A DNA stretch of 33,021 nucleotides from Cohaesibacter sp. Lineage in GTDB: Bacteria; Pseudomonadota; Alphaproteobacteria; Rhizobiales; Cohaesibacteraceae. The DNA is taken from assembly GCA_025210795.1 (NCBI GenBank), contig JAOAQZ010000017.1, forward strand, positions 1 through 33,021. The letters are read 5' to 3'. Within the stretch, counting starts at the first letter, position 1, and each line of letters starts with the position of its first letter. Both the position numbers and the translations under genes were made by a program. Of the stretch, positions 4,010 to 30,996 are shown one piece after another. Below the pieces are notes generated by a model. That model was not told where the DNA came from. It searched no databases and saw only the letters and a program-made list of their open reading frames with translations.

Positions 4010-4111
4010 GACAGAACCGCAATGGCTGGAGAGAAAAGGTGAGAGCAGATATAGCCGGATTCGTTGGCGGGAACAGCCAATTGATCACAGCCAATTGATG
4101 ACTATGGCTGA

Positions 4112-7513: not shown

Positions 7514-7663
7514 GGCAATGTGACCAAAATGCAAATCAATAACTTAGTCTCAACACCCGGTGCCAGAATTGTCAATAGAGCTCCCGCTTGAAGATGGATC
7601 TGCAAATCTTTATCGTTCGGCCAGATCAAGGAAGTCCAAAACGGGAGAGCTGCGCAAAGAGCT

Positions 7664-12659: not shown

Positions 12660-12661
12660 TG

Positions 12662-12667
12662 AGGAGG
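12662..12667 (+). promoter_or_regulatory. Ribosome binding site that fixes the OmpA-domain start
   Basis: A perfect AGGAGG lies six bases before the ATG at 12674. It immediately follows the stop codon of the caspase-like gene. It favours 12674 over the overlapping ATG at 12659. Confidence 0.75.
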
Positions 12668-12673
12668 AGCTTG

Positions 12674-14330: not shown

Positions 14331-14578
14331 AATTTGGGAACCCAGCTTGTCAATAGGACCTAATGTCCCGCACATTGTTGCAATAATGACATGGATTAAG
14401 CAATTTTTGCGAGTGCTGAAAGAGATGAGTTGATCCAAGCTTGCGAAAGACTTGAGGGCACGATAAATATTTGAAAGTCCAAATCTTAATAAAGGATTTA
14501 AGAGAAACGACCACAGGTTTCATTTTTATTTTGACATGCCTAGATAGTCGTTTGCGCGAATTTGATTTGAGTAGTGTA
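14331..14578. promoter_or_regulatory. Upstream region of the T1SS operon
   Basis: These 248 bases lie between the IS relic and the TolC-like start and should carry the operon promoter. A TTGACA hexamer at 14531-14536 could be a -35 box, but no good -10 box sits 16-18 bases downstream. The lower part is AT-rich. Nothing else is recognised. Confidence 0.35.
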
Positions 14579-15979
14579 ATGTTTAGACGTCAGTTTTTTG
14601 TAAAATTCCTTCAAATATTTTCAGTTTCTCTCATACTTTCTCCATCTCCGTCGTTTGCCGAGCGGGGGATGTCCTTGCGTCAGGCTGTCGATAATGCCAT
14701 TCAGTCCAATCCACGTATTTTGGGACGAAGCAGTGAAAAGAAAATCGAGCAAGCCCGTTTGCGTCAGGCTACGGGTCGCTATCTTCCCACAGTTGATGTA
14801 AGCGCGGATATTGGTAAGCAGAATATCGATCAACCTAAGGGTCTTAGTTCTAGCCGAAATGACAAGTGGCGAACTCAAAGACAGGGATCTGTTGAATTGG
14901 GATGGGTCTTGTTTGAAGGGTTTGATCGGGCAAATCAAGTTTATGGACAGATCGCGCGTATCAATGCTGCTGGCCTGCGCGTGATTGAAGAATCCGAACG
15001 CGTTGCACTCGAAACGACAGAAGCTTATCTTGATGTGTTGCGCCATCGTCATATTCTTCAAATCGTTCGAAACAACGTTCAGACACATCGCCGTTATCTA
15101 GATAAAATTGAAAATTCTTTTTCAGGCGGAAATGCTTTGCGCGGAGACGTCGTACAGGCAAAAGAGCGTTTGGCTGCAGCTCAAGCTCTGATTGGCGAGG
15201 TAGAGCAGGCGCTTGGTATTGTGAATGCCAAATTCGTTAATCTGGTAGGGCAAAAACCTGCCAAACTCAAAGCAGTTTCTATTCCCCTTAATCTGCCTCA
15301 AAATGTAAGACAGGCTTTAAGGCTAGCGAGAAGTGAACATCCATCTCTCCGTGCTCTTGACAAGGATATTGATGCGATTAGCCATGATCGTGACCGTCTA
15401 AAAAGTGGATATTTGCCAACTGTGAAAATGGTGGGGCGGGGCTCGTATGGCGAAAATGTTAATGCAACTCCAGGAAAACGCGAAGAAGCTTATGTCGGGC
15501 TGCGTCTTTCCATGAATATTTTCAATGGCGGGATTACAAAAGCTAGGGAAGATGAGCAGATTGAACGCCTTGCAGGGCGTAAGATTTATAAAGATCAGTT
15601 GATAAGAGAAATTGACCAATCTGTGCGCACTGCTTGGGTGACGATGGCCACTAATGACAAGCGACAGATTGCCTTACGGAATCAAGTACGCGAAGCCCAG
15701 ACGTTGGTCTCTTCCTATGAGAAGGAATATGATGCGGGTCAGAGGAGCTACCTTGATCTCTTAACTGCTGACGGCAATCTTACGAACTTGAGAATGGAGC
15801 TGGCGAGTACGAAAACTCTCTCTCTCTTCTCCCGATACCAATTGTTGGCTTCGCTAGGTGGTTTGCTGGATAGTTTTCAGATTGTTGCCCCAGTGGGGAG
15901 TGAGCAAATCACAAAACCGGGATCAGCGCTTGGTTATTCTCTCTCCAATGGCTTTGTAATCAAATCATTATCCAATTAA
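14579..15979 (+). CDS. TolC-family outer-membrane channel of the T1SS
   Basis: This is the outer-membrane exit duct that docks onto the HlyD/ABC inner-membrane pair. From the ATG at 14579 it has 466 residues, a normal TolC length. The signal peptide is clear (MFRRQFFVKFLQIFSVSLIL, cleaved near SFAE). Two outer-membrane efflux repeats follow: SLRQAVDNAIQSNPRI with a long helical hairpin, then a second half beginning near LPQNVRQALRLARSEHPSL. The motif YLDLLTADGNLTNLRMEL is typical of T1SS TolC proteins. A TTG 36 codons upstream would add a non-signal-like leader, so I prefer the ATG. It is the first gene of the operon, 39 bases ahead of the ABC gene. Confidence 0.9.
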   Translation: MFRRQFFVKFLQIFSVSLILSPSPSFAERGMSLRQAVDNAIQSNPRILGRSSEKKIEQARLRQATGRYLPTVDVSADIGKQNIDQPKGLSSSRNDKWRTQRQGSVELGWVLFEGFDRANQVYGQIARINAAGLRVIEESERVALETTEAYLDVLRHRHILQIVRNNVQTHRRYLDKIENSFSGGNALRGDVVQAKERLAAAQALIGEVEQALGIVNAKFVNLVGQKPAKLKAVSIPLNLPQNVRQALRLARSEHPSLRALDKDIDAISHDRDRLKSGYLPTVKMVGRGSYGENVNATPGKREEAYVGLRLSMNIFNGGITKAREDEQIERLAGRKIYKDQLIREIDQSVRTAWVTMATNDKRQIALRNQVREAQTLVSSYEKEYDAGQRSYLDLLTADGNLTNLRMELASTKTLSLFSRYQLLASLGGLLDSFQIVAPVGSEQITKPGSALGYSLSNGFVIKSLSN

Positions 15980-16018
15980 AGCCAATTGGTTCGATGTCAT
16001 GAGGATGTGAAACCAACC

Positions 16019-18223
16019 ATGACGAAAATAAAAAATGACATTGAACAAGATATGTCACTTGGAGACAAGTCCTCGCCAGATCGGACTCCGAACAATCTGG
16101 CTGACTGTCTGGCCTATATTGCGCGCTTCCATGGATTATCAGCCACGGCGCAGGAACTGGATGACAAATTGGCTCTGTCTTCCTGCGGTGTTCCGCCCAT
16201 TTTACTAAAGCAGGCAGCACAAAAACTGAGGCTCAAATCTCAGGTGGAAGCCATCAGTCTGGATTCGATCCCTGCCTTGACATTGCCGGCAATATTATCG
16301 CTGGAAGATGGATCCTATATCATTTTGCTTGAGGCTGTGTCCGGGGAGCGCTATCGCATAGCGGAGCCAGCAAAGGGGCATATGTCTCGCACGATTAGTC
16401 GAGCCAATTTGCTCAAGATCTATAATGGTTATTGTGTGTTCGTTACACCCGACCATGGTCTGCATTTGGAGATGACACGTGAGGTCACGAGGACGGATGA
16501 ACGCACTGGCGGTTGGTTCTGGGGAGCAGTGAAAGCCTTTTGGCCCAGTTATATGCAGGTCGCGGTTGCAGCTATTCTGGTCAATATTCTGGCTCTAGCC
16601 AGTCCTCTTTTTGTGATGAATGTTTATGATCGGGTCATTCCCAATCTGGCCATAACAACCCTTTGGTCCCTTACCTTTGGGGTTGGCATTGCGATTATAT
16701 TTGATCTTGTTCTGAGAATATTACGGTCTTGGATTGTCGATCGAACGGGCCGGCGGATTGATATGGCCATTGCAGGACAATTGTTTGATAAATTGGTATC
16801 TCTTCGCCTGCAGGCGCGCCCAACCTCATCTGGTATTCTGGCCAATCAGATACGGGAATTTGACAGTATTCGCGATGTTCTTACATCAAATGCGGTTGTG
16901 GCTGTGCTTGATAGTGCATTTATTGGTATTTTTCTTTTTGTGATGTGGTTGCTGGTTGGTCCGCTCACGCTGGTTGTTGGCCTTGCTGTACCAGCAGTCC
17001 TGATTTTTACTCTGATCTGCCAAATTCCTTTGAATCGTGCCACTCGTCAGGCGCAGTCAGACTCGGCACGGCGTCATGGCCTCCTGGTTAGCACTGCAAG
17101 TAGCCTTGAGGATGTGAAGTCGGTTGGTGCATCCTCATGGTTAAGGCGCCAATGGGATCGTTCGGTGGCGGCGTCCAGTAAATCCTCCAGTGCCATCCGT
17201 TTCTGGAATCATTTGTCGGTTACGGGGATGACCACAACACAGCAAATTGTTTCTGTCATTGTCATAACATGGGGTGTTTTTCTTGTGCTCGATGGTCAAG
17301 TCACGGTTGGTGCCTTGATTGCGACCAATATTTTGTCGGGACGGGTTCTTGCGCCCTTGAGTAATGTGGCCCAGACTTTATCAAGAATTGCCCAAGCCAG
17401 ATCTGCTCTCTCCAGTTTGAATAATTTTATGGCCCAGCCTGAGGATAATATAACACCGCAGCAGGGCTTGGTGGCAACAGGGGAGGGGCATGTCATTGAA
17501 GCAGATGATCTGAGCTTAACCTATCCAACTGCTGAAGTTCCCTCTCTCAATTCTATAAAATTGGCTATTCGGCCTGGCGAGCGGATTGCCGTGATCGGCC
17601 AGATCGGGTCGGGAAAGACGACGCTTGGTCGTTGTCTTTCAGGCTTGATTGATCTGACAGAGGGCCGTGTGCTAATTGATAATATGAATATCAGTCAATT
17701 TGGTGCTGCGAGCATTCGTAATACCATCACCTATTGTGGACAAGATCCTGATCTTTTTGAGGGGACACTTCGTGACAATATTATTGCCGGGGTGCCCTTT
17801 GCCAGTGATGATATGATTGCTGAAAGTGTGCGTATCAGCGGTGTTGAGCGCTTTGCCTCTGAGCATCCATCTGGATTGGCAATGCCGATACAGGAAAGGG
17901 GGCGCAACCTGTCTGGTGGACAACGTCAGGCTATTGCGCTCGCCAGAATTCTGATCCGCAAACCAAGCATTCTTTTTCTGGATGAACCGACTGCCTCAAT
18001 GGATGCCAGCAGCGAGCGCCGCCTTTTGGCTGCACTTCAGACTTCACTTGAAGAGAATCAAACTTTACTTGTTGCTACCCACAAAGAGGCAATCCTTGCT
18101 TTGGTCAATCGGGTGATCGTGCTTGATAAGGGTAAGATTGTGATGGACGGACCAAAAGAACGTGTTCTCGCTGATCTTCAAGCCATGCGGAATGCCAGAG
18201 GAAAGGCGGCCATGGATGCCTGA
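16019..18223 (+). CDS. Type I secretion ABC transporter with degenerate C39-like domain (LapB type)
   Basis: This inner-membrane permease-ATPase powers export of the adhesin. Numbered from the ATG at 16019 it has 734 residues. The first 140 or so form a C39-like domain. The catalytic Cys is not at its expected place and the His is replaced (GSYIILL where peptidases have HFVVL), so it should bind substrate rather than cut it, as in the HlyB/LapB class. A six-helix membrane domain follows (about 160-450), then the ATPase. Its motifs are Walker A (GQIGSGKTT, 527-535), signature LSGGQRQ near 631, Walker B (LFLDEPTAS) near 653 and the H-loop His near 686. An in-frame TTG at 15986 and an ATG at 16052 are alternative starts. 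Its 3' end overlaps the HlyD start by eight bases. Confidence 0.92.
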   Translation: MTKIKNDIEQDMSLGDKSSPDRTPNNLADCLAYIARFHGLSATAQELDDKLALSSCGVPPILLKQAAQKLRLKSQVEAISLDSIPALTLPAILSLEDGSYIILLEAVSGERYRIAEPAKGHMSRTISRANLLKIYNGYCVFVTPDHGLHLEMTREVTRTDERTGGWFWGAVKAFWPSYMQVAVAAILVNILALASPLFVMNVYDRVIPNLAITTLWSLTFGVGIAIIFDLVLRILRSWIVDRTGRRIDMAIAGQLFDKLVSLRLQARPTSSGILANQIREFDSIRDVLTSNAVVAVLDSAFIGIFLFVMWLLVGPLTLVVGLAVPAVLIFTLICQIPLNRATRQAQSDSARRHGLLVSTASSLEDVKSVGASSWLRRQWDRSVAASSKSSSAIRFWNHLSVTGMTTTQQIVSVIVITWGVFLVLDGQVTVGALIATNILSGRVLAPLSNVAQTLSRIAQARSALSSLNNFMAQPEDNITPQQGLVATGEGHVIEADDLSLTYPTAEVPSLNSIKLAIRPGERIAVIGQIGSGKTTLGRCLSGLIDLTEGRVLIDNMNISQFGAASIRNTITYCGQDPDLFEGTLRDNIIAGVPFASDDMIAESVRISGVERFASEHPSGLAMPIQERGRNLSGGQRQAIALARILIRKPSILFLDEPTASMDASSERRLLAALQTSLEENQTLLVATHKEAILALVNRVIVLDKGKIVMDGPKERVLADLQAMRNARGKAAMDA

Positions 18224-19526
18224 TCTCGATGAACTCTATGCCAATGATATTCGTCAGGCAGTTGAAAAATCGGGGAATAGCCGCCCATGGTTATTGTTGC
18301 TGACGGTGGTTGCGATGTTTGCAGCGCTGACTTACTGGGCATCGAAGGCGCAGCTCGAGGAAGTGGCACGCGGGGATGGCCAGTTTGTTGCTGCCGAAGA
18401 GAACCAACAAATTCAATCGCTCTATCCTGGAATTGTCGCAGCCTTGCATGTTCGAGAGGGGGAACAGGTCAGCGCCGGGCAGGATTTGATCAGTATTGAT
18501 GATACCAATGCAGCATCAGAATTGGCTGAGGTGAAGCAAAGAATTGCGGCCTTAAGAGCTCGGGCTTTGCGCCTTACGGCTGAAGTTGAGGGCAAGACAA
18601 GATTCGATCCACAAGACCGCAACTTGCCAGCAGATTTGCAAGTTGCAGAGCAGGCGCTTTTTATGGCTCGCAGAGATGCGTTGCAAAAAGAAGAAGCCAT
18701 TGCCAAACAACAACTTTCTCAGCGCCAGTTTGAACTTGAAGAAGCGCGTTCAAAGGTATTTGAATTGGAGCAAGTTATTGAGCTAACCCGCCGCGAGTTG
18801 GATATGGCGAACAAGCTTCGTAAATCAGGTGCCATGCCGGAATTGCAGCTTATTCGCCTGCAGCGCCAAGCACAGGGTGAGTTGCGTGAGCGAGCTATGT
18901 TTGAGGCGGGGATACCGAGGATTGAGGCTGCAATTGCTGAGGGCAAGGCAAAGCTGGTAGCAATTTTGGCGAACTATGTGGCTCGAGCCCGTGAGGAATT
19001 GACCAAGACGACCGGCGAGGTCAGGATTCTTGAACAAAGCCTGACGCGTTTGCAGGCACGAGTAAACCATGCGACACTTAAAGCCCCGAAAGGGGGGGTC
19101 GTCAACGCACTGAAAATTTCCACAATTGGCGCTGTGGTACAGCAAGGGGATGTTCTTGCTGAAATTGTGCCAGTAGATGACCAGCTTGTAATTGAAGCTC
19201 GTATCCGTCCTCAAGATGTTGCATTTATCCGGCCTGGCCTGAAGGCACGGGTTAAGGTTACAGCGTATGATTATACAATTTATGGTGACTTACCCGGTGT
19301 TGTGAATAGGATCAGTGCTGACACCATTGAGGACAGAGACGGTCAGATTTATTACCAAGTTATTATTGCAATTCTTAAAAATGAAATTGAAAATAAAGGA
19401 AAGTATTTACCAGTAAAAACGGGCATGGTTGCATCAGTTGATATTTTAACCGGAAGTAAAACTATTTTGGATTATTTGTTGAAGCCAATAAAAAAGGCAA
19501 AATGGGAATCTTTCAGAGAAAGATGA
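18216..19526 (+). CDS. HlyD-family membrane-fusion (adaptor) protein of the T1SS
   Basis: The 436-residue periplasmic adaptor links the ABC transporter to the TolC channel. A short cytoplasmic N-terminus precedes one membrane helix (about 24-42: PWLLLLTVVAMFAALTYW). Next come a lipoyl half-motif, a long helical hairpin (about 100-280, rich in Glu, Gln, Arg and Lys) and the second lipoyl half. The family's C-terminal signature is visible: IVPVDDQLVIEARI, then DVAFIRPGLKARVKV and the YTIYGDL stretch. I chose the ATG at 18216 because AGAGGAAAGG sits eight or nine bases before it. This start overlaps the end of the ABC gene, so the two are probably translationally coupled. Confidence 0.92.
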   Translation: MPDLDELYANDIRQAVEKSGNSRPWLLLLTVVAMFAALTYWASKAQLEEVARGDGQFVAAEENQQIQSLYPGIVAALHVREGEQVSAGQDLISIDDTNAASELAEVKQRIAALRARALRLTAEVEGKTRFDPQDRNLPADLQVAEQALFMARRDALQKEEAIAKQQLSQRQFELEEARSKVFELEQVIELTRRELDMANKLRKSGAMPELQLIRLQRQAQGELRERAMFEAGIPRIEAAIAEGKAKLVAILANYVARAREELTKTTGEVRILEQSLTRLQARVNHATLKAPKGGVVNALKISTIGAVVQQGDVLAEIVPVDDQLVIEARIRPQDVAFIRPGLKARVKVTAYDYTIYGDLPGVVNRISADTIEDRDGQIYYQVIIAILKNEIENKGKYLPVKTGMVASVDILTGSKTILDYLLKPIKKAKWESFRER

Positions 19527-19564: not shown

Positions 19565-20425
19565 ATGGCTAATCGGTTCATTCTTTCTGGTCTGATGTTT
19601 TTTCTATTTGCTGGCATGATGCAAGCCGCTATGGCGAGTCCGTTTGGTGGCCTTCTGCGGTATAAACTACCAAAACCATCTGTTTCTGCTCCACTTCCTC
19701 CGGCTTTAACTCAAGATTTGCCTCTACATTATCGTCAGTCTTTTCGACCGAACGATGTTGTTGCGCGGTTTATGGCGCGCAAAAGAGTGGGGGAGCCGTT
19801 CAATATTCCCAATCAGGTTGTTGTGCGTCATCGTCATATTGAGACGATATCTACTCAATTTCGTATCGATAATAGAGCAATTCAGGCGAGCCAGTGGCAT
19901 CAGGCGAAAAAGGATATGCGCCATCTGGCCTTGACCTTGCGTATGTGTGACTTTGGTTTATGCAAGCAGTCAAGCCTAAAGGCCCTTAGCAAGATATTGG
20001 CTGGTACAAGGCAACTGTCTGATGAGCTTAAAATGAGCGCAATTCACCGGCTGGTCGGTACGACAATCCGCTATCGCTCGGAAGGTAGCCGCGATGTTTG
20101 GCAAGCTCCTTTGAAGACAATGGCAAGAGGTGAAGGGGATTGTGAGGATCATGCTCTGATGGCGGGAGCATTTCTGATGCATTCAGGCGTTCCAGCAGAT
20201 CGGCTTTTTCTTTTTCTCATGCAGAACAAACATAGCGGAAAGGGTCACGCTGTTTTGGCGGTCCTTGGCGAGAATGGGAAACGATACATTTTCGATAATC
20301 AGCAAATAATGGTTACAGATGCTCCCCATTCTGATTATGCAATTCAAGCGATTGGTGCAAAGGGTGGTTTGTTCATTCCCCAAAAGCAATTGGACAAAGA
20401 GCCTCTTCTGGAAGCATCGCTTTAA
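19565..20425 (+). CDS. lapG: LapG-like periplasmic cysteine protease (BTLCP family)
   Basis: Bacterial transglutaminase-like cysteine proteases of the LapG type cut LapA/CdrA-like adhesins near the N-terminus and release them from the cell surface. This one has 286 residues and a signal peptide (MANRFILSGLMFFLFAGMMQ, cleaved near AMAS). The catalytic triad is visible: Cys193 in GDCED, His228 in KGHAVLAV and Asp244 in FDNQ. The spacing is close to that of known LapG proteins. GAGAGG lies five bases before the ATG at 19565. It is the last gene of the T1SS operon, 38 bases after hlyD. Its stop overlaps the stop of the giant adhesin gene in a shared TTAA. This position makes the adhesin the natural substrate. 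In known systems LapD sequesters LapG under high c-di-GMP, but no lapD is in the window. Confidence 0.88.
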   Translation: MANRFILSGLMFFLFAGMMQAAMASPFGGLLRYKLPKPSVSAPLPPALTQDLPLHYRQSFRPNDVVARFMARKRVGEPFNIPNQVVVRHRHIETISTQFRIDNRAIQASQWHQAKKDMRHLALTLRMCDFGLCKQSSLKALSKILAGTRQLSDELKMSAIHRLVGTTIRYRSEGSRDVWQAPLKTMARGEGDCEDHALMAGAFLMHSGVPADRLFLFLMQNKHSGKGHAVLAVLGENGKRYIFDNQQIMVTDAPHSDYAIQAIGAKGGLFIPQKQLDKEPLLEASL

Positions 20426-23400
20426 CCTGCAATTGCCGTGACCGTGATCTGTACCAAAGCTGCCTGATCATCAAGTGAAATATCCAGCATGTCACCTGCG
20501 ACCACGCCCTCTAGCTTTGCAACTTGCTCAAAGTCATACTGATCACCCTTACCATCCCGATCAACTTTCAGATTTGTTTGCCCGTTTTCCTCGGTTGCCT
20601 GTACGAAGTCATCAATCTGGTTTCCATCAAATGCGCCTTCCAAGAGGGAGGATAGATTGAGTTGATTGGTGTCTGGGGCAAAATCTATAAGGAGATCTGG
20701 ATCCAGGTCTTTAACATCAACCATCCTATCGCTTGTTGATGCGGGGGTTCCGGTGGAGAGGTTCACGCCAACATACTGCCCTTTACTGCCATCATTGCGA
20801 GTAAACTGACCGCTGGCAAAGACTGACTGGCCGTCTATAGTCCAACTAACGTGATCTGCAGACAAGTTAATTGAGCTGATGCTATGCGTGGAGAGGGATT
20901 GCAATTCACCTTCATTACTTATTCCATCCTCGTTGGCATCTTGCCAGATAAGCAGATCATCGTAGCGGATATCATCTTCGGATATCTGCCCATCCAAGTT
21001 ACTGTCAAATATAGCTAGTGCTTCCAATGAGTCTTCATAGCCTCCCTTGTCAAACCAGGGTGAAAAGACTTCTGAACCGTTCTCTATAGAACCGGTTCTA
21101 TTCAAATCCATGACTAAAATTCCATTGGAGCCAGAGGCCCAAGAAAGTCTCTCAACCTCCCCATCATTGTTCATGTCAAAATGGGCAGTTCGGTTGTTAA
21201 GGTCGATGCCTGTAGAGGATAAGTCGAAAAGGAGCGGGTCAAGATTGCCACTCCATTTTACCGTGATATCGTCAATTGCTAGATGCTTACCGCTTCCGTT
21301 ATAATTTGGGTTCTCAGTGCCAGATACAGTGTCTATTTGAATGCGATCCACTAAATTGAAACTGTCATTCATATCAACGAAAATTCTACTGGTGCTATTG
21401 ACCACGAAGGATTGTGTAGCGACAGATGTACCATTGAGAGTGCCAGTTACAGTAACTGCTAGACCATCTTGCCAAGCTCCAGCGAACCAAGCCCCTTCAA
21501 AGTCAAATTTTTCTCCAGTTTGGCTTTCAAAATAAGAGGAAGTCCAAGAAAAGCCACTCATATATATTGAGTACTGGCTATCGCCAGCCGCGACATGGTA
21601 GCCGGAACTATTGATGCCATATGCATGTGTATTTACGATACCACCATTGCCCCAGTTCATACCTCCATATCCATTGCTGAATTGAATTTCGCCAAAGATA
21701 AAATTATTTTCTTCAAAACTCAAAATTATTTCTTCATCAGCTCCATTGATGACCACATTGTGGTTGTAATCGGTGCCGTCTGTGGTTTTTAGTGTGAAAC
21801 GGTCCTGAGCTGAGGCTCCTCCTGCCAGATTTTGAACTGCTGCCAAGCTGTTATTGATGGAATAGTTCCAGGTCCCGTTGCTGGCCAAGGTCAGTGTGCC
21901 GCCCATAGAGCCGGTATAGGTGCCGGCTGCAAAGCTACTTTCCCCTGTATCGGGATCGGATATGCTCAACCGTCCGCTTGTTGTAAGACGGCCATTTGAA
22001 ACATTCAGGTCTTCAGTTACAGAGCCTGATTGGATGATTTGAACCGTTGGAGCATCATTTTGGCCGTTAATCGTGATGGTCGCAGTTTGCGTCACTGAAC
22101 CACCATTTCCATCATTGATATCATAGGTCAGGTTGATATCGCGGCTGTCGTTCAGGCCAAGATTGTTAAAGCTCGTATGAGTGGGGTCGATGACCAGCTC
22201 GCTGCCATCCAGTGTAACCCCATCTGGCAGGCTGGAGGTCATGGATATTGAAAGTGCAGCACTATCTCCCTCATCGGCATCTGAGGCCCCTTCAAGGAGA
22301 TCGAGGCGATAGGTTTGATCGCCTTCATCGGCACTTGAGGTGAGGGGGGCTGAGACCACTGGGGCGTCATTCACATTCGTGATGGTGAAATTGGAACTGA
22401 CAATTGTGCTCGCGCTGTCGCCGTTTGATCGCTCGGTTGCAGTAATTTTTGCAGTAAGCGTGAAAGTTCCGTTCCAGTCTGAAGGGGGCGTCATGATGAG
22501 CGTTGACAGGTTGGAGATGTCAGCTTCTCCAATCAACCAGCCAGAGCCGTCTGGTGCGGCTGTTCCAAGATTAAAGCTGGAACCTGCTGGATAACCGCCA
22601 AGCAAGATGGATGATAGATATTCCGAACCATCAGTATCAACAAGAGAGGCCGTTAGATTGATTGGCAACGGTTGGTCTTCGAGAAAACTTCTTTCCGCAA
22701 TATCAAACACTCTGATTGATATGCCTCTTGCACTTCCATCACTGGGAGAGCTGTAGCTTTCCCATACAAAGGCAATGCGCCCATCGTCCAGTTCTGTGAC
22801 TTGTGGCTGTCGTTGTTCCCCACTCGTATATTGATTGACAGTAAATTCCCCCCTGGGGTCCCAAGCGATTGATCCATCATCATTGGGCCTGCCAATCCGG
22901 GCAGAGATACCCGAAGAGGAGGTATCTCCTTCGCTGTTTGCACTTTGCCAGACAAATAAAACGCGACCGTCGGACAAAGCCAAAGCCGTATGGTTAAACT
23001 GGTAGTCGGCGGATCTTTCATTAACGACAAATTCGCCCGTTGATGGCCAATTCATGCTGCCGTCGGCTTGGATCTCTCCAATCCGAGCGATGATCTCATA
23101 ATCATCCGTTGGATTATACCCGGCCCAAGTAAAGAGCACCCTGCCATCTGCAAGCTGAACAGGTTGAGCTGAGGACTGATCCCAATCTGTTACCTCGTTG
23201 ATCTTAATTTCGTCGGCAGGTTTCCACGTGATTGTTCCATTTGCATTCGGCGTTCCAATGCGAGCGGAATGCCCCCCGAAATATCCATCGCCCGGCGTTG
23301 CATTGCTACGCCATACATAAAGGATGTCTCCGTTATCCAAGTCGAGAATGCGCTGGATATCCATCCGGCTGGAGTTGTAACCATTGACTTGGGTTTCGCC

Positions 23401-26400
23401 CGATTGCTGGAAGATTACGGATAAATCATTTTGCAAGTCACCGATGCGGGTATTCAGGCTGCGCCCGGAGTCATCCTGCCACAAAAAGGCAAGAGTATCA
23501 TTATCAAGTGACGTGATTTGCGGACCTGTTGTCGAGTTTGCGGAGCTGGTGCCAACTGTAAACTGTGAGCCTATTCGTAAGATTGCACCAGTATGATCGA
23601 CCTCGATAACCCGGCCAGTAATCAGGTTTCCGTTTGTCCAGACATAAGCAAGTTTGCCAGCTTCAATCTCCAAAACTTGCGGATGCCTCAAATCGCCCAT
23701 GATCGTTTGGACAATTCCTCTTTCAGAGCTATTCCAGACAGGTTCGCCGTCCGCATTTATGGTGCCCAATCTGGTATAGATAGCCGCACTGTTGCTTGTC
23801 CATGTTGCCGCGACCATGCCATTGCTGAGTGTTGTAATATCCGGACTCATTTGGTGATCAGCGGTTCCGTGATTGGCGGTAAATTCCAGCCCTGCAACGG
23901 GATTGTGGGATAAGGCTCTAGGTGCCAAGCTGCCGGTTGGGGCATCTGCTTTTGGCTCGACGGTTACAGAGACTGTCGCTGTTGCGCTCCCTCCATTGCC
24001 GTCAGAGATTGTGTAGGTAAATTGGTCAGAGCCGACGAAATCGTGATCCGGGGTGTAGATGACCTTATCATCTGCAGAGTTATCGGCAGTGCCATTGTCA
24101 TCAATGCTAACTGTCCCGTTAGTTCCCTGAGTGACAGCTGAAATAGTCAAACTATCTCCATCCACGTCCCTGTCACCGTCGAGGACGTCAATGGTGATCG
24201 GGCTATCCTCAGCGGTGGTTACCGCCTCATCAACAGCAGTTGGTGCGTCATTGACGCCTGTCACCACCAGGCTGGCAGTGTTGGCAACGCCTATATGTTC
24301 ATCATGGACATCATAACGCACAGTGAGGGTACGGCTTTCATCTCCGGCCAGATGATTATATTGGGTAGGATCAATGCTGATCGTGCCATCATTGTTGTTT
24401 GTAAAGGTAACGGAGGCACCAAGATTGTCGGTCACGCTGATATTGCGGGCAGATAGGGTGTCGCTTGTATCTGTGTCCGTCTGCCCGGCGAGTAGATTGA
24501 TTGATAGAGGGCTGGCATCCTCTGTGACCTGACCGGCATTAATTGCGGTTACCGTTGGTGCATCATTGGTGCCGGTCACAATCAGACTTGCCGTGTTGGA
24601 AACATCCGTATGTCCATCATGCACATCATAGCGCACGGTGACGGTACGGTTTTCGCCGTTGGCCAGATGATTATATTGGGTGGGATCAATGCTGATCGTG
24701 CCGTCATTGTTGTTAGTAAAGGCAACGTGCGTACCAAGATTGTCGGTTACAGAGATGTTGCGGATGGATAGCGTGTCGTTTGTATCAGTATCTGTTTGCC
24801 CTGCGAGCAGGTTGATAGGCAATAGTGCTGCGTCTTCTGAAAGTTGCCCTGCATTGATCGCGATCACAGTCGGAGCATCGTTTCGGCCTTCGATGGTCAG
24901 TGTGACCGTCGCACTATCGGTGCCGCCATTGCCATCTGATATTGTATAGGTAAAGCTGTCTTCTAGCGTCTCACCTTCTGCCAAAGCTTGAATTGTTGAT
25001 GCATTGGCTGAATTGTAACTGATGGTGCCGTCGGCAGTCAGTGTTATAGCAGCGCCATTCGCACTGGTGGCTGAAACGGATGTGATGCTTAAAGTGTCTG
25101 AGCTGTCTGGATCTGTGTCGTTGGCAAGCAGGTCGGCGGCCTGAATGAGCGCGGTATTGTCTTCATTTGCAAATGGCGTGTTTAAACCGGTCAGTTCAAC
25201 GATTTGTGCAATTACACCATAACCATCCTGGACGCCAAAATTATCCGACGAGTCGGCAAATAGAACGAGAAGGCGGCCTGGTTCGAGCTCCACAAATTGT
25301 CCATAGCGCTGATTTCCGTCACGATCAAAGATGAGATCGTTGGACAATATCGATCCATCATTTGAAATATAGCGCAAGGCTACGTTGTCGGGACCATTTC
25401 TTCCGCCTGGTGTTGCTATAATATCTTCCGCATACTGAACGACATAGCCACCATTTGCTAACGCAGCCACATCGACGATACCCTGACCGCCAGTCAGATT
25501 GCTATTGATGACAAATTCCTGATCAGATTTGAAAGTACCGTCAGCTGATAGGACACGGCTTGGTGTATCAAGCCATGTCGACCCATAACGAACCCAAGTA
25601 ATCGAAAAGCTGCCATTTTCTAGGGCAACAATATGAGGGCTACGAACACCTGAGGATGTGTCAAATCTTTGAGGGTCGCTAATCTCTGAGAAATCACGAT
25701 TAAAGAGTTGTACGTAGCCATTTGACCCCCACCAATTGCTTAGATGGCTTCCATTTCGCCAACTTACGGCAATAACGCCATCCTCATTAATTGCGATGTC
25801 CCCATAAGAATCCACATTTGCTTCGTCAATGATAACTTTCTCCTGCACATTTAGAGAGTTATCAGCTTGGATTTTCATCTCATAGAGTTTGATGACACGG
25901 CTTCCATTATCTCCTTGTAGTTGAGCAGAGATTACAAAAGAACCATCCTTAGCCTGATCAAAATTATGGTCAGAGCGACTGTCGTTGGCATGGCCAAAAA
26001 GATGGATTGGACTTAGGGATGTACCATCAGGTGCAAAGACACCACCCTTGACAGCATTGTCGCCGGTATCTGTCCATTGAATATAGACATTTCCATTGTC
26101 GAGGACCTTGATATCTGCAGCGCTAAGATTGCCCGTAAGCTGCAGATCAAACTCTATTGAATCACCAACCGGCTTTCCATCTTTGTCGAGATATAGTCCG
26201 GTGAGTTTGGTTGCATTCTTAACTGCATAGACTGCCAGGACCCTATCCCCTTGCTTGTCGATGGCAATGCTTGAAGACTGTTCAAGACTGTCATTGGGAT
26301 TGGAAATGAGGGTAGGAGCGCTATCCAAGGTGAGGGTAGGGCTATCTGAGCCTGCGGTGTCTCCATTTAGATGGTCATCCACCGCATCTGGTGCGTCATT

Positions 26401-29400
26401 TCTTCCCTCGACTGTAAGGGTGACAGTTGCTGTATTGGTGCCACCATTGCCGTCGGTGACGGAATAGGTGAAGCTATCTTCAAGCGTCTCGCCCTTAGCT
26501 AGGAACTGAATTTTGGTGGCATTGGTCGGATCATAGCTGATTGTGCCATTGCCATTCAGCATCATCGACGCGCCATTGGTGCTGGTCGCAGAAACTGAGG
26601 TGATGCTAAGAGTGTCAGATGTATCCGGGTCGATGTCGTTAGCAATGAGGTCGGAGGCCGAAATGATTAAGACTGCATCTTCACTATGTCCATGTCTTGG
26701 CTGGCCATCAGCTCCGAAGAAACGTGCCATGATCGCGCTGCCATCACCGTCCTCATCATGATGGCTATGGGTTGACCACATAATGACGAAACCGCCGTCA
26801 TTCAATGCTGTAATGCTTGGGTGTGAATCCCGATTGTTTACCAGATCGCTGACCAGAAATTCGGAAACACCATCACCATTTCCATCTACTTCTGTGCCAT
26901 CTGGTTCATAAATTTTTGCTGCGAGATCCCAGCCATTCCCATAGGCGCCGGTGATCCAGGCAACTATAAAATTACCATTCTCAAGCACTGCGATTTCTGG
27001 AAGAAATTGCGTGTGGACTTCCTGATCATTGACTAGGAATTCGGCTCCGCCATTTCCTTGAGCGTCAAAAATTCTGGCCTTAACGGCTCCCCCGGAACCT
27101 TCATCATCATTTTCATTTTGAGTATACCAGGTGATAACAAAGCCGCCATGTTGCAAGGCGGCGACAGCCGGGTCACGTTGATAATCATCTGTTTTTAAAT
27201 TAACGGTGAACTCGCTTTCACCATTACCGTCTGGATCCAGTGGCGTTCCATTCGGGTCGAAAAGCCGAGCACTGATTGCGGTATAGGAGTAATCAGTGTT
27301 GTCACCAAGTTGCGGTTTATCACTCGTCTCCCATACTGCTATAGTATTGCCATTCGTGAGCGTGACAATTTGGTGTTTGACTTGATCACCGGCAGTGAAT
27401 TCATTGACTAAAAAGCTAGTGCCGCCCTTGTCGTCCAGATCAACCAGAGTGCCATTTTGATTGATGATTCCGGCACGAATTCCAATTCTGCTATTATCGC
27501 TGTATTGCTCCCAGTCTTCCCAGGAAACCAGGAACCTATCCGCGGATAGCGCAATAACATTTACGCTCCACTCGAAATAGCTTCGATAGTTTGTATCATA
27601 GAATTTGATAAGCGGTGAATTATCGGCATTGATGAGAGTTCCATCCCGCTCAATCATGATAGCATAAGCGCTAGAAATGCCTTTGTCGTCACCGCGCCAA
27701 GTGACTATTCCCTTGCCACTTGGTAAAAAAGCAACAGATGGTGAGTAGGTGTAACCACTTAAATTATCAAGTAGCGTAAATTCGTTGCCAGGATTGTTGT
27801 TCTTGTCAAAAATCCTCGCTTTGAGGCTGACATTGTTCAAGCCAGTGCTGTAGCGATCAATCCAAACAGAGATAAAGCCGCCGTTTGGCATGGCTTCGGT
27901 GACTGGCTGAACCTGATGATCTTGAGTTTTTTGGTTGACGATGAATTCTTTTGTGACAGGAAGAACATCATTGCCAGCTTGGGGTGTATCATTGCTCCCC
28001 GTCACCACAAGGTTTGCGGTATTGGCAACGCCTGTATTCCCATCATGGACATCATAACGTATTGTGAGGGTGCGGCTTTCGTCTCCAGCCAAATGATTAT
28101 ACTGGCCGGGTGTAATGCTGATCGTACCATCATTGTTGTTTGTGAAGGCAACAGAGGCACCAAGATTGTCGGTCACGCTGATATTGCGCGCAGATAGGGT
28201 GTCACTTGTATCAGTATCCGACTGCCCTGCGAGCAGATTAATTGTTAGAGAGTTTGCGTCTTCGGTGATCTGACCGGCATTAATTGCGGTTACCGTTGGT
28301 GCATCATTGGTTCCCCCGATGGAGAGAGTGACGGTTGCAGTATCTGTACCGCCATTGCCGTCGGAGATTGTATAAGTAAAGCTGTCTTCCAGCATCTCTC
28401 CTTCTGCCAAGGCCTGAATTTCGGGTGCATTTGTCGGGTCATAACTAATGGTAGCATCGGCGTTTAGCCTAAGAGACGCACCCTTATTGCTCGTGGCAGA
28501 AACTGCAGTGATACTTAAAGTGTCTGAGCTATCGGGATCGGTATCGTTGACCAGAAGGGATTTGCCATCAATTGTAAGGCTCTGATCCTCGTTATAGCGA
28601 CCAATGGGGTTACCCAAGGTGTCAAACATTCTTGCGTTGATCGCAAAGCCGCTCAAATCGCCTAACTGGGCATCACTGGAGATCCACGACACGACAAATC
28701 CGCCGCCGTCCAAGGCTGTGACAGAGGGGTTGGCTTGTTGGTTGTTTGCAATTTCATTGACCAGAAATTCTGGTACGATCTCGTTACCGGAACTATCAAA
28801 GATACGCCCCTTGACCCCCAAGGAGCTGGAGTCTCCTTGTTGAGGATCATAGGATTGCCAGGTGACGATAAAGCGCCCACCTTCAAGAGCCGCAATTGAA
28901 GAAAATGACTGCTCGGCATTGGTGAGTGAATTGACCAGAAATTCCGGGATCACGACCTCACCATCAGCATCTAGAATGACAGCTTTAATACCAATGCTGC
29001 TATTGTCGCCTTGCTGCGGGTCTTTCGAATTCCAGGTGACAACGATATGTCCGTTATCCAGCTCAGTTGATCGGGTTTGATACTGATCTGAATTTACATA
29101 ACTATTTACCTGAATTTCCGCGCTAGCCGGTGCTCCCGTAGCGTCAAAAATTCTTGCCTTAATGGCTGTTCCGCTGGTGTCACCTTGCTGGCCGTCATCG
29201 GATTGCCACGTGACGATAAAACCGCCATCGGATAGCCCGGTTACATAAGCGTCAGTTTGGTCGCCGTCTTTGTAATCGTTTATCGAGAACTCGGAGGTAA
29301 CGGCCTGTCCTGCGGTATTGAATATCCGCGCGCGAATGCCGTAACCATCGGAATCATCGTCGCTTGCATTGTTGGATTGCCAGACGACAACGAAATGTCC

Positions 29401-30996
29401 GTTCTCTAATGGTGTAGCCCATGGAGCGGCCTGTTGGCCTTCTACCAGGTCATTGACCAAAAACTCAGAGACAAGTTCGTTGCCATTGTCATCAAAAATC
29501 CTCGCTTTGATACCAGTAAGATCATCGTCCCCCTGACCGGGGCGGTTTGACTGCCAGACAACCGCAAACCCGCCATTGTCCAAAGCAACAGGGAAGGGAA
29601 CTTCCTGCCGACCGGATGTTAGGGAGTTAACGCGAATTTCCCCACCAACTGGATTGCCATATCGGTCAAAAATTTGAGCATTGGCACTTGGAGATGAGAT
29701 ATCCCCCTGAAGATGATCATATGAATGCCAAACGACGACAAACCCGCCATCTGCCAGATTTGTAATGTTTGGACGGAATTGGCCCTGGTCAGTTACTTCA
29801 TTGACGCGAAAATCACTGCCGTTACCCAGAAAATTATCATCTGAAGCATTTGGTGCATCATTGACACCAGTCACCACAAGGCTGGCGGTGTTGGCAACGC
29901 CTGTATGTCCATCGTGAACGTCATAACGCACGGTGAGGGTGCGGTTTTCATCTCCGGCCAGATGATTATATTGAGTGGGATCAATGCTGATCGTGCCGTC
30001 ATTGTTGTTGGTAAAGGCAACGGACGCACCCAGATTGTCGGTCACGCTGATATTGCGCGCAGATAGGATGTCACTTGTGTCTAAATCTTTCTGACCATCG
30101 AGAAGATTTATCGAAACAGGCGGGGTATTTTCTGTTACTTGCCCGGCGGCAATTGTCGTTACAATCGGGGCGTCATTTTCGCCGAACAATGTTAGCAGAA
30201 TGGATGCTGAAGCGCTGAAAATACCGTCGTAAATGGTATAGCTGAAGGTCATTTCAGTGGCTTCACCTTCAGCCAAAGCATCAAATGCACTGCTGTCAAA
30301 GATGATTTGGCTGCCAGCCCGGACAAACGAAATAGGATCTCCGGACGTCTGATGGAAATCAGTAATCGTTATCGATCCGCCATCTGGGTCACTGATGATA
30401 CCAAGAAGATTGTAGCTGAAAATCTGGTTTTCTTTACCGGATAAAGAACCATTGAGAGCGATAGGTTCAAGTGCGGAATTGGAAGCATGGTAGGAAAAAT
30501 AAGAAGGTAGATGATCGAAACCTATTCCGTCTTGTCCGCTTGTTGAGATGGTTGAGCTCTCTAAAGGGGTGGTCTCAAAGCTAAAGTCACTCTGATTTTG
30601 CCCGTTACTGTTGGGGATGTTGTTGCTTTCTTCACCTTCTGCAGGTTTTGCAAGGCCGTCGGGGACCGGGAAAAGCTGAGCAAACTCCTCAGCTGTTAGG
30701 TTACCTGCTTCAAAGCGAATGCTTTGAGCTCTGGGGAGATCGCTATTTGAGTGATAAAAGTTCTCTAGTTTTAGAATTTCTCCGCTGGAAAAACGAACAA
30801 CGAGAGTGTTGCCTTCACGCGTGAACTCTGTTTGAAACTGGCCAATTTGCGTGAAATCAACTTGCTGGCCCTCTTTCACTGAAAGTGTGATTTTACTCGA
30901 AGATACTGGCTTACTCACTATGAGGGACTGTTGTTGTGCAGGAGCTTCAGAGCGCAAGTTGGGAGTTGCTTGTGCAATGTGAATATTATTTTCCAT
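20422..30996 (-). CDS. Giant T1SS adhesin with four seven-blade repeat blocks
   Basis: A 3524-residue surface protein with no N-terminal signal peptide, as expected for type I secretion. Residues 1-125 form a Bap/LapA-type N-terminal module (KEGQQVDFTQIGQFQTEF, GEILKLENF). Then follow, N to C: cadherin-like module, A1, propeller block P1, B1, A2, P2, B2, P3, B3, A3, A4, a cadherin-like module, P4, three VCBS/cadherin-like modules, and a single-copy Gly/Trp-rich domain (about 3088-3252). A calcium-binding region follows with EF-hand-like loops (DSNLDGQISEDD, DANEDGISNEGE), then a T1SS C-terminal target domain (LNLSSLLEGAFDGNQIDDF). Classical GGxGxD RTX nonapeptides are absent. The ATG at 30996 has AAGG eight bases upstream. 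It should be exported by the TolC/ABC/HlyD trio and released by the LapG-like protease (inference). Confidence 0.9.
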   Translation of the reverse strand: MENNIHIAQATPNLRSEAPAQQQSLIVSKPVSSSKITLSVKEGQQVDFTQIGQFQTEFTREGNTLVVRFSSGEILKLENFYHSNSDLPRAQSIRFEAGNLTAEEFAQLFPVPDGLAKPAEGEESNNIPNSNGQNQSDFSFETTPLESSTISTSGQDGIGFDHLPSYFSYHASNSALEPIALNGSLSGKENQIFSYNLLGIISDPDGGSITITDFHQTSGDPISFVRAGSQIIFDSSAFDALAEGEATEMTFSYTIYDGIFSASASILLTLFGENDAPIVTTIAAGQVTENTPPVSINLLDGQKDLDTSDILSARNISVTDNLGASVAFTNNNDGTISIDPTQYNHLAGDENRTLTVRYDVHDGHTGVANTASLVVTGVNDAPNASDDNFLGNGSDFRVNEVTDQGQFRPNITNLADGGFVVVWHSYDHLQGDISSPSANAQIFDRYGNPVGGEIRVNSLTSGRQEVPFPVALDNGGFAVVWQSNRPGQGDDDLTGIKARIFDDNGNELVSEFLVNDLVEGQQAAPWATPLENGHFVVVWQSNNASDDDSDGYGIRARIFNTAGQAVTSEFSINDYKDGDQTDAYVTGLSDGGFIVTWQSDDGQQGDTSGTAIKARIFDATGAPASAEIQVNSYVNSDQYQTRSTELDNGHIVVTWNSKDPQQGDNSSIGIKAVILDADGEVVIPEFLVNSLTNAEQSFSSIAALEGGRFIVTWQSYDPQQGDSSSLGVKGRIFDSSGNEIVPEFLVNEIANNQQANPSVTALDGGGFVVSWISSDAQLGDLSGFAINARMFDTLGNPIGRYNEDQSLTIDGKSLLVNDTDPDSSDTLSITAVSATSNKGASLRLNADATISYDPTNAPEIQALAEGEMLEDSFTYTISDGNGGTDTATVTLSIGGTNDAPTVTAINAGQITEDANSLTINLLAGQSDTDTSDTLSARNISVTDNLGASVAFTNNNDGTISITPGQYNHLAGDESRTLTIRYDVHDGNTGVANTANLVVTGSNDTPQAGNDVLPVTKEFIVNQKTQDHQVQPVTEAMPNGGFISVWIDRYSTGLNNVSLKARIFDKNNNPGNEFTLLDNLSGYTYSPSVAFLPSGKGIVTWRGDDKGISSAYAIMIERDGTLINADNSPLIKFYDTNYRSYFEWSVNVIALSADRFLVSWEDWEQYSDNSRIGIRAGIINQNGTLVDLDDKGGTSFLVNEFTAGDQVKHQIVTLTNGNTIAVWETSDKPQLGDNTDYSYTAISARLFDPNGTPLDPDGNGESEFTVNLKTDDYQRDPAVAALQHGGFVITWYTQNENDDEGSGGAVKARIFDAQGNGGAEFLVNDQEVHTQFLPEIAVLENGNFIVAWITGAYGNGWDLAAKIYEPDGTEVDGNGDGVSEFLVSDLVNNRDSHPSITALNDGGFVIMWSTHSHHDEDGDGSAIMARFFGADGQPRHGHSEDAVLIISASDLIANDIDPDTSDTLSITSVSATSTNGASMMLNGNGTISYDPTNATKIQFLAKGETLEDSFTYSVTDGNGGTNTATVTLTVEGRNDAPDAVDDHLNGDTAGSDSPTLTLDSAPTLISNPNDSLEQSSSIAIDKQGDRVLAVYAVKNATKLTGLYLDKDGKPVGDSIEFDLQLTGNLSAADIKVLDNGNVYIQWTDTGDNAVKGGVFAPDGTSLSPIHLFGHANDSRSDHNFDQAKDGSFVISAQLQGDNGSRVIKLYEMKIQADNSLNVQEKVIIDEANVDSYGDIAINEDGVIAVSWRNGSHLSNWWGSNGYVQLFNRDFSEISDPQRFDTSSGVRSPHIVALENGSFSITWVRYGSTWLDTPSRVLSADGTFKSDQEFVINSNLTGGQGIVDVAALANGGYVVQYAEDIIATPGGRNGPDNVALRYISNDGSILSNDLIFDRDGNQRYGQFVELEPGRLLVLFADSSDNFGVQDGYGVIAQIVELTGLNTPFANEDNTALIQAADLLANDTDPDSSDTLSITSVSATSANGAAITLTADGTISYNSANASTIQALAEGETLEDSFTYTISDGNGGTDSATVTLTIEGRNDAPTVIAINAGQLSEDAALLPINLLAGQTDTDTNDTLSIRNISVTDNLGTHVAFTNNNDGTISIDPTQYNHLANGENRTVTVRYDVHDGHTDVSNTASLIVTGTNDAPTVTAINAGQVTEDASPLSINLLAGQTDTDTSDTLSARNISVTDNLGASVTFTNNNDGTISIDPTQYNHLAGDESRTLTVRYDVHDEHIGVANTASLVVTGVNDAPTAVDEAVTTAEDSPITIDVLDGDRDVDGDSLTISAVTQGTNGTVSIDDNGTADNSADDKVIYTPDHDFVGSDQFTYTISDGNGGSATATVSVTVEPKADAPTGSLAPRALSHNPVAGLEFTANHGTADHQMSPDITTLSNGMVAATWTSNSAAIYTRLGTINADGEPVWNSSERGIVQTIMGDLRHPQVLEIEAGKLAYVWTNGNLITGRVIEVDHTGAILRIGSQFTVGTSSANSTTGPQITSLDNDTLAFLWQDDSGRSLNTRIGDLQNDLSVIFQQSGETQVNGYNSSRMDIQRILDLDNGDILYVWRSNATPGDGYFGGHSARIGTPNANGTITWKPADEIKINEVTDWDQSSAQPVQLADGRVLFTWAGYNPTDDYEIIARIGEIQADGSMNWPSTGEFVVNERSADYQFNHTALALSDGRVLFVWQSANSEGDTSSSGISARIGRPNDDGSIAWDPRGEFTVNQYTSGEQRQPQVTELDDGRIAFVWESYSSPSDGSARGISIRVFDIAERSFLEDQPLPINLTASLVDTDGSEYLSSILLGGYPAGSSFNLGTAAPDGSGWLIGEADISNLSTLIMTPPSDWNGTFTLTAKITATERSNGDSASTIVSSNFTITNVNDAPVVSAPLTSSADEGDQTYRLDLLEGASDADEGDSAALSISMTSSLPDGVTLDGSELVIDPTHTSFNNLGLNDSRDINLTYDINDGNGGSVTQTATITINGQNDAPTVQIIQSGSVTEDLNVSNGRLTTSGRLSISDPDTGESSFAAGTYTGSMGGTLTLASNGTWNYSINNSLAAVQNLAGGASAQDRFTLKTTDGTDYNHNVVINGADEEIILSFEENNFIFGEIQFSNGYGGMNWGNGGIVNTHAYGINSSGYHVAAGDSQYSIYMSGFSWTSSYFESQTGEKFDFEGAWFAGAWQDGLAVTVTGTLNGTSVATQSFVVNSTSRIFVDMNDSFNLVDRIQIDTVSGTENPNYNGSGKHLAIDDITVKWSGNLDPLLFDLSSTGIDLNNRTAHFDMNNDGEVERLSWASGSNGILVMDLNRTGSIENGSEVFSPWFDKGGYEDSLEALAIFDSNLDGQISEDDIRYDDLLIWQDANEDGISNEGELQSLSTHSISSINLSADHVSWTIDGQSVFASGQFTRNDGSKGQYVGVNLSTGTPASTSDRMVDVKDLDPDLLIDFAPDTNQLNLSSLLEGAFDGNQIDDFVQATEENGQTNLKVDRDGKGDQYDFEQVAKLEGVVAGDMLDISLDDQAALVQITVTAIAG
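22690..23892 (-). repeat. Adhesin propeller block P4 (seven blades)
   Basis: Residues about 2369-2769 contain seven repeats of about 57 residues. The lead-in is GEFxVN and the core DGRVLFVWQS, followed by ARIG where P1 has ARIFD. The last blades carry W(D/K/N)P before the next lead-in. This is a separate sub-family from P1 and P2. Confidence 0.7.
24241..24555 (-). repeat. Adhesin 315-nt module, copy A4
   Basis: Same 315-nt module, abutting A3 without a gap. It reads INAGQVTEDASPLSINLL and YDVHDEHIGVANTA, and ends at the NDAP before the cadherin-like module. Confidence 0.9.
24556..24870 (-). repeat. Adhesin 315-nt module, copy A3
   Basis: Same 315-nt module, in direct tandem with A4. It reads INAGQLSEDAALLPINLL and YNHLANGENRTVTVRYDV. 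Confidence 0.9.
24871..25164 (-). repeat. Adhesin 294-nt module, copy B3
   Basis: Same module and length as B1 and B2, directly after propeller block P3 and abutting A3. It reads NDTDPDSSDTLSITSVSATS and DSFTYTISDGNGGTDSATV. Confidence 0.88.
25185..26335 (-). repeat. Adhesin propeller block P3 (seven diverged blades)
   Basis: Residues about 1555-1937 can be divided into seven repeats of about 55 residues. The blade core is still visible (GNVYIQW, GVIAVSW, GSFSITW, GGYVVQY), but the EFxVN lead-in is mostly lost. This is the most diverged of the four blocks. Confidence 0.62.
26389..26682 (-). repeat. Adhesin 294-nt module, copy B2
   Basis: Same module and length as B1, directly after propeller block P2. 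It reads NDIDPDTSDTLSITSVSATS and DSFTYSVTDGNGGTNTATV. Confidence 0.88.
26690..27951 (-). repeat. Adhesin propeller block P2 (seven blades)
   Basis: Residues about 1016-1435 hold seven repeats of about 60 residues with the P1 blade pattern. Blades 2 and 3 are the most diverged (GKGIVTWRGD, DRFLVSWEDW). Several blades end in Asp/Gly-rich loops such as DPDGNGE and DGNGDGV, which could bind calcium. Confidence 0.72.
27982..28296 (-). repeat. Adhesin 315-nt module, copy A2
   Basis: Same module and same 315-nt length as A1, placed between B1 and propeller block P2. It reads ISITPGQYNHLAGD where A1 has IDPTQ and ends NDTP in place of NDAP. Confidence 0.88.
28297..28590 (-). repeat. Adhesin 294-nt module, copy B1
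   Basis: A 98-residue module with NDTDPDSSDTLSITAVSATS and DSFTYTISDGNGGTDTATV, ending NDAP. It directly follows propeller block P1. Copies B2 and B3 have the same length. Confidence 0.88.
28600..29814 (-). repeat. Adhesin propeller block P1 (seven blades)
   Basis: Residues about 395-799 contain seven consecutive repeats of about 58 residues. Each begins (S/P)EF-x-VN, continues with a Q six to nine residues later, then GG-F-VVxWQS, a Gly/Asp/Ser loop, and ends ARIFDxxGN. Seven equal blades suggest one closed beta-propeller. Confidence 0.75.
29851..30165 (-). repeat. Adhesin 315-nt module, copy A1
   Basis: This 105-residue cadherin/VCBS-like module runs from just after one NDAP to the next. 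It carries NNNDGTISIDPTQYNHLAGD and RYDVHDGHTGVANTA. Copies A2, A3 and A4 are the same length and nearly identical in DNA. A1 differs by reading IAAGQVTE where the others read INAGQ. Confidence 0.9.

Follow-up and report, generated by a model that had tools for sequence, protein, structure and literature searches.

A 33,021-nucleotide stretch of Cohaesibacter sp. DNA (contig JAOAQZ010000017.1 of GenBank assembly GCA_025210795.1; hereafter the window) carries the gene of a giant protein, which is likely a surface adhesin of the LapA/Bap kind, exported by a type I secretion system (T1SS) and built of four seven-bladed beta-propellers (P1 to P4) spaced by immunoglobulin (Ig)/cadherin-like modules. 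The protein contains four blocks of seven repeats belonging to a common sequence family, it has export genes as neighbours and it carries the Asp-Pro of a self-processing module. Rings of P1, P2 and P3 are predicted to close from structural models. Repeated blocks of exactly seven are found in the adhesin and in many relatives, and the adhesin's own four score below all Pfam and NCBIfam cut-offs.

Four blocks of seven repeats

The original prediction placed 28 repeats of about 55-60 residues at 22690-29814. We measured them at 22693-29817 on the minus strand (residues 394-2768), with lengths of about 51 to 69 residues. The proposed succession of four repeat blocks with Ig/cadherin-like modules between them is borne out by the block positions and the linker matches (Table 1). 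Pfam and NCBIfam scans of the adhesin gave Cadherin_5, Big_9, tandem-95 and VCBS modules, Cadherin_5 in nine stretches (Pfam), part of them without an assigned position.

A hidden Markov model (HMM) seeded with P1 and grown on the adhesin found in its last round seven repeats in P1 and seven in P2; in P4 it gave six matches in the first round and seven in the last. For P3 and P4 the count is decided by profile alignment. With a reference profile made of P1 and 43 seven-repeat blocks from the fetched loci, hhalign aligned P2 (E 5e-48) and P4 (E 8e-54) in register across all seven blades, and P3 (E 3e-24) in register from within blade 1 to the end. When P3 and P4 were aligned to the profile as single sequences, 38 to 57 of the 58 positions were covered per blade and the longest gap was 9 (E 5e-33 for P4). 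Seven repeats in each block, as had been proposed, are confirmed by sequence comparison (HMM for P1, P2 and P4; profile alignment for P3 and P4).

Copy number in relatives

Repeat runs were counted in 133 proteins, i.e. the best 120 of 1,241 matches (the adhesin included) and 13 from further searches. Seven copies are present in 558 of the 676 runs, and 37 others hold a higher multiple of seven (30 of 14 copies, four of 21, and one each of 35, 42 and 49). When the 623 runs of at least five copies were clustered at 50% identity, 177 were left, 149 of them with seven copies, 14 with a higher multiple and 14 with neither. The Ig-type runs of the same proteins provide an internal control: 399 were counted in 92 of the 133 proteins, and two have seven copies. 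Since most blade runs hold seven or a multiple of it and Ig-type runs vary freely, the sevens are not due to chance. A closed ring fixes its copy number, a string of Ig-like domains does not, and sevenfold counting thus amounts to a test of ring closure that uses sequence alone. In 18 stretches picked for strong matches from other genomes of its order and class, 31 of 39 runs have seven copies. In arrays of at least 14 copies that are multiples of seven, each seventh step is longer, averaging 61.5 residues versus 57.8 for the others (53 vs 540 steps, p 4e-8).

Three relatives, P0010, P0012 and P0074, carry uninterrupted arrays of 42, 49 and 35 blades with no long spacer in between; by count these correspond to six, seven and five consecutive rings. 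A class-wide figure of 92 out of 385 genomes was not retained as a number of blade-bearing genomes, because the Ig-like portion of the query accounts for many of the matches.

Predicted fold of the blocks

In the AlphaFold2 (AF2) models, each of the 14 blades of P1 and P2 has its A, B and C strands, and the D strand is often short or broken. Ahead of the first A strand lies a short one (model positions 5-6 in P1, about 627-628 in P2), which is what a velcro closure needs. For P1, P2 and P3 alike, VIA-align matches the model to closed propeller rings, with 312 to 381 residues superposed, the CylK propeller being by far the top match of P1. The predicted fold is graded strong for P1 and P2, and good for P3. 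The closed seven-bladed rings of the original prediction are thus recovered in the models of three blocks, and P4 was modelled with six blades.

Several observations weigh against seven closed blades in every block. The P1-seeded HMM found in P3, in its last round, five partial matches, one of them at E 0.78. A family HMM, grown on the adhesin and 119 relatives, counts seven repeats in P1 and in P2, 1 + 4 in P3 and 1 + 5 in P4, so that the adhesin's own P3 and P4 stand among the split runs; these splits indicate that so broad a model counts too few of the divergent blades. For 81 of the 676 runs the count is not divisible by seven (68 of one to six copies, nine of eight, and single runs of 15, 16, 38 and 52), the relatives are not independent, and a list ranked by score favours proteins with many blocks. 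The step right after the seventh measures 60.2 residues, close to 61.5, which makes array spacing weak evidence of ring borders. The P3 model has a moderate predicted local distance difference test score (pLDDT; mostly 57-86 per ten residues) that dips to 35 near model residues 172-183 (blade 4) and below 50 in further short stretches up to residue 380; it was built from 8 aligned rows, the closing strand lying outside the modelled stretch. Finally, AF2 gave P4 as a six-bladed, sialidase-like ring in which residues about 2404-2455 have a pLDDT below 40, and the VIA-align matches listed for this model are to six-bladed folds, none to a seven-bladed one.

P4 might then have six blades in its ring, one of its repeats being degenerate and looped out, beside three seven-bladed rings. 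We consider this unlikely, because P4 taken as a single sequence matches the seven-blade profile blade for blade with no gap above 9, because in its homologues P0122, P0123, P0124 and P0125 the region matched holds runs of seven repeats, and because alignment A6, which was given to AF2, has no rows at the repeat left unmodelled. The six blades of the model are most likely due to A6 rows shifted by one blade, and the VIA-align result for P4 is not taken as proof of six blades. For P4 a seven-bladed closed ring is predicted by homology. Hardly any credence can be given to blocks made of open or extended beta-repeats (a solenoid or strings of small domains) whose sevens would be a coincidence of recent duplication: the likeness of the P1 blades suggests that duplication there may be recent, but seven or a multiple recurs in 595 of the 676 runs over 133 proteins in which Ig-type runs vary freely, and for three blocks the AF2 models match closed rings in superposition.

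Sequence family of the blades

No Pfam or NCBIfam model matches the four blocks at its curated cut-off; sub-threshold matches include GbpA_2 (P1) and PDIAV_lipo (P2 and P3). In relatives, GbpA_2 scores 51 bits (cut-off 26.6) over three short stretches of block L121, and CopC 23.5 (cut-off 23.3) on block L110; we take both as chance likeness summed over repeats.

The blades had been likened to the integrin alpha head. Only the topology agrees with this; FG-GAP (PF01839) has no match on the blocks or anywhere in the genome (it is positive in 3 of 14 controls), and the best fold match is CylK. Membership of the integrin-alpha/FG-GAP family was rejected on the lack of a PF01839 match in the genome. 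The VCBS propeller (PF13517) is not listed for P1 to P4 at E up to 10, a range in which the filters drop most matches above about 0.1. According to excerpts of PMC8023676, integrin-type propellers carry a DxDxDG motif. In contrast to these propellers and to those of the VCBS supercluster, the adhesin blades have a short conserved DGG at the A-B turn instead, and no Pfam match to FG-GAP or to the VCBS propeller.

Searches by sequence gave no convincing solved structure, the best being 5c0p (E 0.02, profile A1), and no match to CylK at E 10 with profiles A1 and A7 against PDB sequences. The C-terminal seven-bladed propeller of CylK (7ron, 7roo; Cylindospermum) shows 13% identity. This enzyme pairs a single ring with an RTX-like N-terminal domain, whereas the adhesin has four blocks and no match to RTX repeats.

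Conservation was measured on 901 blades (thinned at 70% identity, the set being stopped at 901). The conserved core consists of GxEFxVN, Q, P, L, DGG, W, D, A-Q/R and G. With loop limits that we chose from the P1 model, the D-A and B-C loops are variable (means of 1.43 and 1.58 bits) and the A-B and C-D loops conserved (2.44 and 2.37 bits). As stated in the part of PMC8916777 available to us, the D-A and B-C loops of propellers lie on the top face, which is the face of interactions. The variable top-face loops fit, without proving it, a top face that binds ligands.

The open-access literature that we searched yielded neither an account of this family of blades nor one of a T1SS adhesin with more than one seven-bladed ring; the nearest case is BapP. 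Propellers with highly repetitive sequences are the subject of PMC9218822. General statements on secreted bacterial proteins with several propellers and Ig-like domains have been published (excerpts of PMC8023676).

Divergence among the 28 blades

The mean identity of blades inside a block is 42% for P1, 26% for P2, 16% for P3 and 28% for P4; comparisons across blocks give 31% for P1-P2, 29% for P1-P4 and 18% for P1-P3. P1 and P2 had been described as alike, with P3 and P4 distinct. This is true of P3, which is distant, but P4 is about as near to P1 as P2 is. The phylogeny of the 28 blades that had been suggested (FastTree) has low support and no position-by-position correspondence. Blades at the same position are no more alike than blades at all positions (31% and 31% for P1-P2, 29% and 29% for P1-P4), and the blade tree thus gives no evidence for duplication of whole blocks.

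Export genes and C-terminus

A plus-strand set of export and protease genes ends where the adhesin gene ends (Table 1). The T1SS genes, the LapG-like protease and the tandem-95/VCBS modules form a context that fits the secreted adhesin proposed at the outset. Giant T1SS adhesins of the LapA/Bap type share with it their size, tandem-95/VCBS modules, TolC-ABC-HlyD genes and an adjoining LapG-like protease. Unlike them, the adhesin has no match to RTX nonapeptide repeats (PF00353 is not listed at E up to 1), its LapG and BapA-prefix matches stay below the NCBIfam cut-offs, and four propeller blocks are inserted. Two points speak against a full likeness to this type: the match to the BapA N-terminal prefix lies below both cut-offs, and no LapG cleavage motif of the AAG/AAP type was seen by eye in the adhesin N-terminus.

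The protease sequence contains GDCED, GH and FDN motifs, which we take to be catalytic. Its NCBIfam LapG score is far below the cut-off, and this C93 protease therefore appears to be a relative of LapG rather than a clear orthologue. LapD (PF16448) has no match in the genome, but the control genomes are likewise all without a match. The genome has four C93 (LapG-type) matches, on contigs C8, C16, C31 and C38, that of the window being the lowest (48 bits).

Near the end of the adhesin, residues 3254-3407 (154 residues) match the FrpC module 6sjw, and Asp3253 stands directly before the matched Pro. Such a module was matched in five of the 133 proteins, the adhesin included. In FrpC the Asp-Pro bond is cut in calcium via an aspartic anhydride able to link amines (from the available part of PMC7846742). 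Homology and the Asp-Pro are common to both, the module sitting here at the C-terminus of a propeller-bearing adhesin.

Table 1. Positions in the window of the adhesin, its parts and the adjoining export genes (aa, amino acids; ORF, open reading frame)
Feature	Position	Strand	Description
Adhesin ORF	20422..30996	-	3524 aa, ATG start; no Cys, net charge about -331; NCBIfam tand_rpt_95 and TIGR01965 VCBS above cut-off
BapA-prefix-like N-terminal stretch, weak	30739..30828	-	residues 57-86; 18.2 bits (Pfam cut-off 27); 20.3 bits over 57-81 (NCBIfam cut-off 35)
P1, seven blades	28600..29817	-	residues 394-799
P1-P2 linker, Ig/cadherin-like	27952..28599	-	residues 800-1015; 55% identity to the P3-P4 region
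P2, seven blades	26695..27951	-	residues 1016-1434
P2-P3 linker, Ig/cadherin-like	26320..26694	-	residues 1435-1559; tandem-95-like motif in sequence; whole-protein Pfam/NCBIfam matches
P3, seven divergent blades	25186..26319	-	residues about 1560-1937, likely closing strand 1560-1566 included
P3-P4 linker, Ig/cadherin-like	23890..25185	-	residues 1938-2369; top Cadherin_5 stretch 2248-2347; AF2
P4, seven blades	22693..23889	-	residues 2370-2768; 7 HMM matches, hhalign in register; AF2 six blades only
Ig/VCBS-like region past P4	21262..22692	-	residues 2769-3245; TIGR01965 at 3007-3093; Aeromonas RTX-adhesin repeats 6xi1 at 2969-3087
FrpC-like self-processing module	20776..21240	-	residues 3253-3407, Asp3253-Pro3254; 6sjw E 9.4e-19
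C-terminal 114 residues, probable T1SS secretion signal	20425..20766	-	past the self-processing module; similar C-terminus in P0121; putative role
TolC-type outer membrane channel	14471..15979	+	PF02321; TIGR01844 above cut-off
T1SS ABC transporter, LssB subfamily, C39-like domain	15986..18223	+	TIGR03375 787 bits (cut-off 693); PF03412
HlyD-type T1SS adaptor	18162..19526	+	TIGR01843 above cut-off
LapG-like C93 cysteine protease, convergent with the adhesin	19565..20425	+	PF06035 above cut-off; NCBIfam LapG 37 of 320 bits

Possible function of the rings

The adhesin would be exported by the adjoining type I secretion genes, its chain probably leaving the cell unfolded and folding in the calcium outside. 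In each block blade 7 would lack an outer strand of its own and take the first strand in its place (velcro closure). The Ig-like modules presumably act as spacers, and the variable loops on the top face of each ring may be open to ligands, among which polysaccharides or glycoconjugates are the most likely. In calcium the FrpC-like module would cut Asp3253-Pro3254 and shed the last 271 residues (the module and the likely secretion signal). The end left by this cleavage is possibly reactive and able to join the fibre with a neighbour, and the LapG-like protease might release the fibre.

A binding role is suggested by the variability of the loops together with the propellers of Bap1 and RbmC, which bind matrix polysaccharide. 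In these Vibrio cholerae proteins a velcro-closed propeller binds the biofilm exopolysaccharide (excerpts of PMC10102183). The four blocks may be separate binding platforms with different ligands for each, as the original prediction had it. Bap1 and RbmC, which are also biofilm adhesins, have one eight-bladed ring and beta-prism domains, no tandem rings and, in the text available, no mention of a T1SS, in contrast to the four seven-repeat blocks and the T1SS of the adhesin. BapP of Pseudoalteromonas tunicata is closer: this Bap-like protein combines, as here, a propeller with Big_9 Ig/cadherin-like modules and a nearby putative T1SS. It has one predicted five-bladed N-terminal ring, whereas the adhesin has four internal seven-repeat blocks and a self-processing module (PMC12153261).

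Instead of ligand platforms, the propellers could be mainly structural or homophilic spacers, or parts that keep the fibre together. The arrays of relatives, with up to 49 blades, are as expected of filament-like parts, and the Ig/cadherin modules of such adhesins are mostly structural. But the top-face loops vary more than the bottom-face loops, and the propellers of Bap1 and RbmC bind exopolysaccharide (PMC10102183, in part); we regard a spacer role as rather improbable, while leaving it appreciable weight. That the rings are catalytic, in a surface or secreted enzyme similar to CylK, is very improbable: the CylK propeller is the best fold match of P1 by far, but two profiles gave no sequence match to CylK at E 10, and its active site lies between the ring and the RTX-like N-terminal domain (available part of PMC8916777), and the adhesin has no match to RTX repeats.

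In the usual description, a giant T1SS adhesin is a stiff chain of Ig-like domains that has its few ligand domains close to the tip. Should the rings bind ligands, the fibre would be multivalent along its length, and the swap of a block would be a simple change of adhesion target. A broader picture is offered tentatively, and we hold it as possible rather than probable. The rings would form a large unnamed seven-bladed family, beaded along giant secreted fibres with up to 8 rings per protein and up to 7 back to back. Each ring could be re-aimed, its frame being fixed and its top-face loops variable, and blocks would be gained or swapped within the genus. With a self-processing triggered by calcium, the result would be a multivalent adhesin that binds and welds.

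Relatives in the genus and other genes of the window

Across 18 genomes of the genus (that of the adhesin counted), P1 and its linker have clear relatives in G197, P3 and its linker have them in G635, and G084 shows a weaker P1-like match. Given this patchy distribution the blocks look like modules that are gained and lost. G635 also has a homologous protease-ABC-HlyD set (33% identity for LapG, 39% for ABC and 34% for HlyD), which adjoins a different giant protein, made of DUF5801 repeats; the 2,985 residues of it that were read have no detectable blades. At the locus of that giant protein (L141, 10547-19501, plus strand) opposite-strand ORFs recur every 540 bases.

The window contains a second propeller-type protein, of 1,209 residues (9030-12659, plus strand), with bacterial SH3, WD40-like and C-terminal caspase-like domains. 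Its gene is adjoined by that of a LuxR-type regulator (7664-8821, minus strand; NCBIfam matches below cut-off), and followed by that of an OmpA-type protein (12659-13249). A type I restriction-modification set, with specificity, methylase and EcoEI-type restriction subunits, occupies 999-7534 of the minus strand.
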